A program made the position numbers and the translations under genes. Source: Nosocomiicoccus ampullae (GTDB lineage: Bacteria; Bacillota; Bacilli; Staphylococcales; Salinicoccaceae). Taken from it: a stretch of DNA of 64,000 nt. The stretch is taken from assembly GCF_019357495.1 (NCBI RefSeq), contig NZ_CP079110.1, positions 310,001 to 374,000 of the forward strand. The letters run 5' to 3'. Each line of letters opens with the position of its first letter. Within the stretch, counting starts at the first letter, position 1. Shown here in pieces: positions 40,797 through 42,462 of this stretch. A model generated the notes under the pieces. The model was not told the origin of the DNA. It saw only the letters and a list, made by a program, of their open reading frames with translations, and did no database searches.

Positions 40797-41345
40797 ATGA
40801 AAAGTACAAATACGAAGCTCATCGTAATGATGGAGATTGCGATTTTAGCAGCTTTAAGTATGGGGCTCGACTGGTTAGATACACCATTTAAAATCGGTCC
40901 ATACAGTTTTAGTTTTTCAATGGTGCCAATTATTATTCTAGCGGTGCGCCGCGGGGTAGGCCCAGGAATGATCGGTGGTTTAATTTGGTCGATTCTACAA
41001 ATTATCACTGGTAACGCTGCAGGATGGATTGTACACCCAGTACAATTAATTTTAGATTACCCACTTGCGTTTATGTTAATTGGAGTCGCAGGTGTTGCAG
41101 CAAAAAATAGAACGTTATTAAACGTATTATTTTGGACGCTTATTGGAATTTTTTTACGTTATACATCACACTTTTTCGCAGGATGGTTCTTCTTTGGAAG
41201 CTACGCGCCAGAAGGTCAACCTGCATGGCTATACAGTTTAATCGTTAACGGATCTACATTCTTAGCAAACGCAGCGATCTGTTTAATATTTGTTGGATTA
41301 TTATTCTTTGCTGGTCGACGCTTATTTACACCAGCTGAAAGATAA
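40797..41345 (+). CDS. thiT: Thiamine ECF transporter S-component
   Basis: This 182-residue protein has six hydrophobic segments. It shows ThiT hallmarks: ALSMGLDWLDTPFKIGPYSFSFSMVPI, RRGVGPGMIGGLIWSILQIITGNAAGWIVHPVQ and FLRYTSHFFAGWFFFGSYAPEG, including the aromatic thiamine-binding residues. It captures thiamine for the shared ECF module, which is not in this window. The TPP riboswitch directly upstream confirms the vitamin. AGGAAG precedes ATG 40797. Confidence 0.96.
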   Translation: MKSTNTKLIVMMEIAILAALSMGLDWLDTPFKIGPYSFSFSMVPIIILAVRRGVGPGMIGGLIWSILQIITGNAAGWIVHPVQLILDYPLAFMLIGVAGVAAKNRTLLNVLFWTLIGIFLRYTSHFFAGWFFFGSYAPEGQPAWLYSLIVNGSTFLANAAICLIFVGLLFFAGRRLFTPAER

Positions 41346-41388
41346 AAAATACCAGCCGAACTTTTAAAGCTCGGCTGGTATTTTTATT
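41346..41388 (+). terminator. Intrinsic terminator after thiT
   Basis: AAAATACCAGCCGA (41346-41359) and TCGGCTGGTATTTT (41371-41384), with a T-rich tail. The T-rich flank on the other strand makes it potentially bidirectional. Confidence 0.9.
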
Positions 41389-41640
41389 TTTACGTAAATT
41401 AGGTTTGCGTGAACGACTGTAAAATTTCGTTCACGTTTAGACGATTTATGTTCACGAAATGATTAAGAGGTTTACGTAAAAGCATTTTGCATTTACGGAA
41501 TAATTAATCGTTTACGCAAAATCATTTTGCGTAAACAAGTACTTCATCTTGTTAACGAATAGATAAAATGCATGAACGAAATAGAGTTCTCGTTAACGAA
41601 AAAACAAATTGCGTTAAATTAAACAGTCATTCGTTTACGA
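41387..41640. repeat. Cluster of short GTTnACG-type inverted repeats
   Basis: This noncoding, roughly 250-bp stretch between convergent thiT and uppP is built of related half-sites. Examples are CGTGAACGA (41408-41416) against TCGTTCACG (41427-41435), TGTTCACGAAAT (41449), GTTTACGTAAAA (41470), GTTTACGCAAAAT (41510-41522) against ATTTTGCGTAAAC (41524-41536), GTTAACGAA (41551 and 41592) and CGTTTACGA (41632). The 41510-41536 element is a palindrome with perfect 13-base arms around one central base. Spacing is irregular. No open reading frame or promoter is evident. Confidence 0.7.
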
Positions 41641-42462
41641 TAACACGATGAATTGATACATAATCGCAAATATTCCTGCAGCGAAGCAGTAATAACTGAA
41701 ATATTTGAGACGCCCGCTTGTTAAAGCTCCTTCTAGTAATTTAAATCCGATGTATGTTGCAATAATCGTTACAATAAACGATGCGATGTACGGAACGAGT
41801 AGTGTGTCGAGCATTGGATCTGACGCGATATCTGAAATTGATAAGATTGCAGTTCCGAGCGATACAGGTATATATAGTAGGAATACAAATCTTAATGCAT
41901 TTTTCTTCTCTAGTCCGACTGCCATAGAACCAACGAGTGTCGCACCGCTTCGGCTTATTCCAGGAATTAATGCCACGCATTGTGAGAGACCAACGATAAT
42001 TGAGTCTTTAACTGTTAACTCTCCGTCACGTTTAACACCTGATTTATTTTTTATAAACCATAACGCACTCCCTGTAACAAGAAGCATTAATCCGACAAAC
42101 CCCATAGAGACATTGTCACCAATAATATCTTTTAATAAGAATCCAAGTACTCCAACAGGAATCGTCGCAATAATTAAGTAAATGACGTATTTAAAATCTA
42201 CTATTGCTTGTTCATCTCTATTGCCCTTAAATATGTAGCGTAAAAAGTTTTTTGCAATTTCAAATATATCTCTCCAGTAGATATAGAGGACTGCGATTAG
42301 TGAAGCGGTATTTAAAAATATTTCAAAAGATAGACCATTCGCTTCGACTCCAAATAATTCTCTTGCCATGACTAAATGACCACTTGAAGAGACAGGAATT
42401 GGTTCAGTTAACCCTTGTAAAATTCCAAGAAAAACATATTTAATTATTTCTATAATATCCAT
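41635..42462 (-). CDS. uppP: Undecaprenyl-diphosphate phosphatase (BacA/UppP)
   Basis: This 275-residue polytopic membrane enzyme recycles undecaprenyl pyrophosphate for cell-wall synthesis and gives bacitracin tolerance. Motifs are LQGLTEPIPVSSSGHLVMAREL (catalytic Glu-rich first motif) and LIPGISRSGATLVGSMAVGL. AGGAGG precedes ATG 42462. The coding end runs into the last unit of the repeat cluster. It is monocistronic and divergent from clpB. Confidence 0.96.
   Translation of the reverse strand: MDIIEIIKYVFLGILQGLTEPIPVSSSGHLVMARELFGVEANGLSFEIFLNTASLIAVLYIYWRDIFEIAKNFLRYIFKGNRDEQAIVDFKYVIYLIIATIPVGVLGFLLKDIIGDNVSMGFVGLMLLVTGSALWFIKNKSGVKRDGELTVKDSIIVGLSQCVALIPGISRSGATLVGSMAVGLEKKNALRFVFLLYIPVSLGTAILSISDIASDPMLDTLLVPYIASFIVTIIATYIGFKLLEGALTSGRLKYFSYYCFAAGIFAIMYQFIVLS

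Follow-up and report, generated by a model that had tools for sequence, protein, structure and literature searches.

The window analysed here is a stretch of 64,000 nucleotides from the source genome (G000 C1:310001-374000), within which two genes converge on a short intergenic gap. On the left lies a thiT-like thiamine transporter gene (40797..41345, + strand), an open reading frame named by inspection, and on the right uppP, encoding undecaprenyl-diphosphatase (41635..42462, - strand), identified from its open reading frame and its relatives. The array region between them begins right past a bidirectional thiT terminator hairpin (41345..41385), a neighbour outside the element that is retained in Nosocomiicoccus massiliensis, where the array is absent. 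The patch itself represents a DNA element, apparently undescribed until now, that stands at many gene ends in this bacterial family; a search of the open-licence literature turned up no account of such repeats, and an earlier report elsewhere is possible.

A preliminary description of this DNA had reported a dense cluster of inverted repeats between convergent genes. The cluster is real and more ordered than was claimed, since it consists of six dyads on a strict lattice that had been missed. The dyads start at 41388, 41429, 41470, 41510, 41551 and 41592, giving spacings of 41, 41, 40, 41 and 41 bp, and match a 27-bp consensus, GTTNACGNAAA-N5-TTTNCGTNAAC, with 0 to 4 mismatches. Dyad 1 (TTTTACGTAAATTAGGTTTGCGTGAAC, 41388..41414) carries one mismatch; dyads 3 (GTTTACGTAAAAGCATTTTGCATTTAC, 41470..41496) and 6 (GTTAACGAAAAAACAAATTGCGTTAAA, 41592..41618) carry two each; and dyads 2 (GTTCACGTTTAGACGATTTATGTTCAC, 41429..41455) and 5 (GTTAACGAATAGATAAAATGCATGAAC, 41551..41577), with four each, also fall on the lattice. 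The previously noted 27-bp palindrome with perfect 13-base arms is present as dyad 4 (GTTTACGCAAAATCATTTTGCGTAAAC, 41510-41536), which matches the consensus exactly. With at most one mismatch, there are 13 matches to GTTNACGNAAA within 41388-41644, compared with 35 expected by chance across the whole 64 kb. Autocorrelation of the lattice, at about 40.7 bp, peaks at lags 41, 122 and 82, and an unbiased lag scan of the region returned 40.7 bp as the best period (z = 8.8). Tandem Repeats Finder (TRF) gives no array in this region, where the repeats are degenerate. Half-sites had also been said to extend into the end of uppP. One match on the + strand does overlap the stop codon (41633..41643), but it is probably coincidental and a reflection of coding sequence, because the uppP stop of N. 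massiliensis has GTAAAC with no array behind it.

Taken as a whole, the region comprises two overlapping and opposite copies of a four-dyad element of about 149 bp, which have two dyads in common. Copy a (41388..41536, + strand) has spacings of 41, 41 and 40 bp, and copy b (41470..41618, - strand) of 40, 41 and 41 bp. Against a sequence-only profile, R1, built from an ungapped alignment of 31 copies, they score E = 2.1e-24 and, on the minus strand, E = 3.0e-17, each copy being itself part of the model.

We compared three Nosocomiicoccus genomes: the source (G000, 1.55 Mb), Candidatus N. stercorigallinarum (G001) and N. massiliensis NP2 (G002). The preliminary description held that its claim would be refuted by a motif that stands at chance frequency genome-wide and lacks conservation in related strains. 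The outcome is split: the half-site alone is at chance frequency, with 55 matches as against 71 for a reversed-pattern control, but the dyad and its lattice are both enriched and conserved. Half-site matches cluster at separations of 41 or 82 bp, and counts of the 27-bp dyad, at three mismatches or fewer, are 29, 25 and 33 in these genomes versus 6, 4 and 5 for controls, an excess with no comparable counterpart among 57 further genomes from the order. The proposed intergenic repeat family was borne out: the source genome has about 12 copies, the two sister species carry more, and arrays of equal period occur in other genera. In all three genomes the recurring element is four dyads at 41, 41 and 40 bp (40, 41 and 41 when read the other way), from which a few copies deviate by a single base. 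Its second dyad usually has a variant half-site, GACGATTA, in one arm only, a signature that is degenerate in the window copies; the arms of this dyad are anti-complementary at three inner positions, which pair in only 1, 1 and 2 of the 31 copies. The best profile E-values in Nosocomiicoccus genomes are near 1e-28, by construction for copies within the model, and there is a weak match in one other genus (G004, E = 2e-5). The window array is present in G001 and absent from N. massiliensis, so this copy is not essential; the empty site in N. massiliensis is too diverged to define a target-site duplication of the kind by which MITEs and insertion elements are recognised. Elsewhere, four-dyad elements have been tandemly duplicated whole at 244-245 bp (L165:8511-8903 and G002:C130:6512-7233), a distance that is six times about 40.7, so that the duplication preserves the lattice. 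Copies face both ways on both replication arms (ori at position 1, dif at 872087), and an orientation skew relative to replication was rejected.

The half-site cores change about three times less between species than do linkers and flanks. Between G000 and G001 orthologues, core positions differ at 5.4%, as against 24% for variable and loop positions, 16% for linkers and 14% for flanks; in the comparison with N. massiliensis the corresponding values are 9.0%, 33%, 24% and 28% (core versus linker plus flank, Fisher p about 3e-10 in each of the two species pairs). As copies were initially located by the core pattern, this bias could account for some of the conservation; an orthologue was recovered, however, for nearly all G000 elements, and many weak dyads were included only through their lattice position. 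Indels are likewise avoided, with 3 inside nine elements versus 22 in flanks (p = 8e-6). Across Nosocomiicoccus copies the arms do not covary, pairing at 75.4% compared with 76.5% after shuffling, and RNAalifold finds no consensus RNA fold of the element, which makes recognition of double-stranded DNA, and not of an RNA hairpin, the probable source of the constraint. Rfam likewise gives only sub-threshold matches, none reaching a family's gathering score, and an RNA element was rejected.

Distinct array regions lie between convergent genes in 22 of 38 cases, versus 23 of 195 other intergenic regions (gene calls for these counts being simple open reading frames), and 97 of the 130 flanking gene ends are 3' ends. 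Some copies stand upstream of transporter genes, for example an OpuCA-like ABC gene. The flanking genes are ordinary and unrelated, with no shared theme, and a conserved neighbour encoding the binder was accordingly rejected. The 3' end of a NERD-like gene hosts arrays in three genera, and that of rarA has a 51-bp-class array in G004 (L369:4899-5221) and a 41-bp-class element in N. massiliensis (L242:1634-1782); this re-use of addresses across genera is suggestive, with too few cases to beat chance by a rough estimate.

To look beyond Nosocomiicoccus, we took samples of 200-460 kb per genus in six genera of the family (five besides Nosocomiicoccus, the G000 stretches having been picked around half-site matches). 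Noncoding tandem arrays occur in all six and, with few exceptions, have a period of exactly 41 or 51/52 bp, and one genome in a second, sister family has two arrays at 51 bp. Neither two further families (300 kb, three genomes) nor roughly 490 kb of loci from named outgroups yielded any such array. When every array is counted, a period of 41 or 51/52 bp is seen in 39 of 49 from carrier families, versus none of 17 elsewhere (p = 3e-9). The periods recur across 22 clusters of unrelated unit sequence: eight at 41 bp, eleven at 51 bp and three at 52 bp. The profile matches in G004 are themselves tandem arrays of 41-bp period whose dyad is similar to that of Nosocomiicoccus. Half-site distances are 16/25 bp in many 41-bp arrays, in three genera, and about 24/27 bp in most 51-bp arrays, whose 9-base arms are mostly complementary at 8-9 of 9 positions; in the 52-bp arrays no arms stand out clearly. 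Arms diverge, within arrays, some 2.5-4 times less than the rest (3.7% versus 15.8% in the 51-bp class; 5.2% versus 13.0% in the 41-bp class), and compensatory double changes preserving a Watson-Crick pair were not seen. Copy number ranges from about 2 to 16, and arrays are locally homogenised, their sequence differing between loci and genera. That spacing is conserved despite completely different sequence suggests that a protein lines up on the arrays.

The reading that we favour, tentatively and at a little short of an even chance, is that the element is a multi-site DNA target for a putative sequence-specific dimeric DNA-binding protein that would form arrays at gene ends. The analysis shows the architecture, the copy number, the conserved cores and spacing, the quantised period and the genomic position; that there is such a protein, that it binds as a dimer and what it does are inferred. 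One putative dimer would occupy each 27-bp dyad through the half-site TTNACGCAAA, set in inverted pairs whose starts are 16 bp apart. Adjacent dimers would lie about four helical turns from one another (41, 41 and 40 bp at 10.2 bp per turn) and could touch on one face of the DNA, building a nucleoprotein array to which the variant half-site GACGATTA in one arm of the second dyad might lend direction. Placed at intergenic 3' ends, often convergent ones, the elements may serve to structure or insulate the chromosome and not to control promoters. Their counterparts in related genera would be the arrays of unrelated sequence at 41 bp, together with the second class at 51/52 bp. A nucleoid-protein binding array or a multi-site operator had already been proposed; of the earlier suggestions this fits best, with the protein putative. 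The window array has no promoter-like site near it. Several points count against a protein array. Gene ends are also simply the most repeat-tolerant place, the flanking genes are ordinary and unrelated, and the window locus is empty in N. massiliensis. A serious difficulty is that arm sequences differ among the arrays of a single genome, so that no protein of a single specificity could bind every array, and either several proteins are needed or the constraint is on geometry alone. A broader version, which we consider rather doubtful, is that the family has a system akin to chromatin, with dozens of arrays of inverted half-sites between genes. Their period would be fixed at four (41 bp) or five (51/52 bp) helical turns, with geometry and not sequence conserved across genera, and they would be bound by a family of co-evolving array-forming proteins that shape the chromosome at gene ends.

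The main rival to a protein-bound array is that these are selfish or neutral satellite DNA: minisatellites made by slippage or recombination, dispersed by an unspecified route and tolerated between convergent genes, with a common period that comes from the duplication mechanism or from descent from one ancestral array. Local homogenisation, differences between loci and genera, variable copy number and some loci that are empty in a sister species are all as this account would have them, and we regard it as possible if somewhat unlikely. It sits poorly with the exactness of 41 and 51/52 bp in 22 unrelated clusters with hardly any other noncoding periods, with the conservation of cores in particular and the scarcity of indels in the Nosocomiicoccus copies, degenerate as these are, and with arms that are better conserved than spacers within arrays. 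Bacterial repeat arrays are usually taken as noise or as typing markers; here an exact period and half-site geometry common to unrelated sequences in several genera are difficult to account for unless something physical constrains them, for instance a protein spaced along the helix. If true, a nucleoid protein that forms such arrays would be new, as would a mechanism making duplications of fixed helical length, and the order offers a natural comparison, with families that have and lack arrays side by side.

The remaining alternatives appear less probable. That the dyads are operators of a transcription factor controlling neighbouring genes is unlikely: inverted half-sites with conserved cores would suit it, as would the copies upstream of transporter genes, but the predominance of 3' ends, the unthemed neighbours and the lack of a promoter-like site at the window region do not. 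Very unlikely, in our view, is a role as stem-loops acting as RNA or single-stranded DNA, for instance as 3'-end stabilisers or replication hairpins. Here the near-complete complementarity of 51-bp-class arms of differing sequence in one genome is set against the missing consensus fold and Rfam family, Nosocomiicoccus arms that pair slightly below the shuffled level, and the anti-complementary arms of dyad 2. The preliminary description had also raised REP-like elements, and the alternating, regularly spaced extragenic palindromes do recall BIMEs (PMC2817692). Mobilisation by a REP-associated Y1 transposase is nonetheless extremely improbable, as the sequence is A+T-rich, without a GTAG head or stem covariation, and the REP-type transposase that was to be sought was found in no carrier genome: Y1_Tnp (PF01797) had no match above cut-off in the 12 genomes tested and none whatever in array carriers, while the same search matched in E. 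coli and four other controls. The overall interpretation in the preliminary description is partly supported.

Among known systems, BIME/REP sequences have the nearest architecture, being likewise extragenic, palindromic, regularly spaced and alternating in orientation. REPs are defined by features that include a stem-loop palindrome with a GTAG-type head, and BIME-2 binds gyrase (PMC2817692); the element has neither that head nor a G+C-rich stem or RAYT, and its spacing is fixed at 41/41/40 bp, with one period held across unrelated sequences. ParB-parS and Noc sites are also chromosomal palindromes, theirs bound by a multimerising protein, but they measure 14-16 bp, compared with a 27-bp dyad in phased groups. 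The parS consensus TGTTNCACGTGAAACA has no match in the array, and canonical parS-like sites occur elsewhere in G000; with these sites and the ParB and Noc genes intact, the element is not a substitute centromere, and a replacement for parS or Noc was rejected. Like bacterial minisatellites and VNTRs, the arrays are tandem, noncoding and locally homogenised, with head-to-tail unit copies that are clear in other genera and degenerate in the window; unlike them, they keep to quantised periods of 41 and 51/52 bp and contain inverted half-sites that are conserved. CRISPR arrays combine identical repeats with unique spacers of about 30 bp, whereas the element has 14-bp linkers, degenerate repeats and a 41-bp period. 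To our knowledge, the BOX and RUP repeats of Streptococcus pneumoniae are built of different modules and have no lattice of identical dyads. They too are a short modular intergenic family in a Gram-positive genome (PMC3049150). As an instance of bacterial minisatellites, the Salinicoccus halodurans genome report counts 58 'tandem repeats' (PMC4667468). A mobile-element origin was also discarded: there was no plasmid match, a single 36-bp phage match was judged to be chance, and the exact dyad occurs in no viral contig.

Several further features were observed. In the source genome, a 52-bp-period array lies between convergent genes (L252:13557-13898; G000:C1:875557-875898), about 3.5 kb from dif (872087, ACTTCCTATAATATATGTTATGTAAACT), and a further 52-bp array is found at L167:9380-9555. 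In genome G011, TTCCCGGGAA recurs in two 41-bp arrays (L323:12419-12844 and L328:4539-4670) and resembles the Noc binding site, ATTTCCCGGGAAAT. The sister-family genome has dense repeated AAGTTCCTTTAACGTA and CGGAGATGTAGCAA motifs that lie off any 41-bp lattice (L259; G019:C6:30255-30355). Finally, the array half-sites of genome G016 (ACGAATGACAATTAG, L344-L346) resemble the variant CGTTGACAATTAG arm of Nosocomiicoccus dyad 2, a likeness that hints at shared recognition or ancestry.
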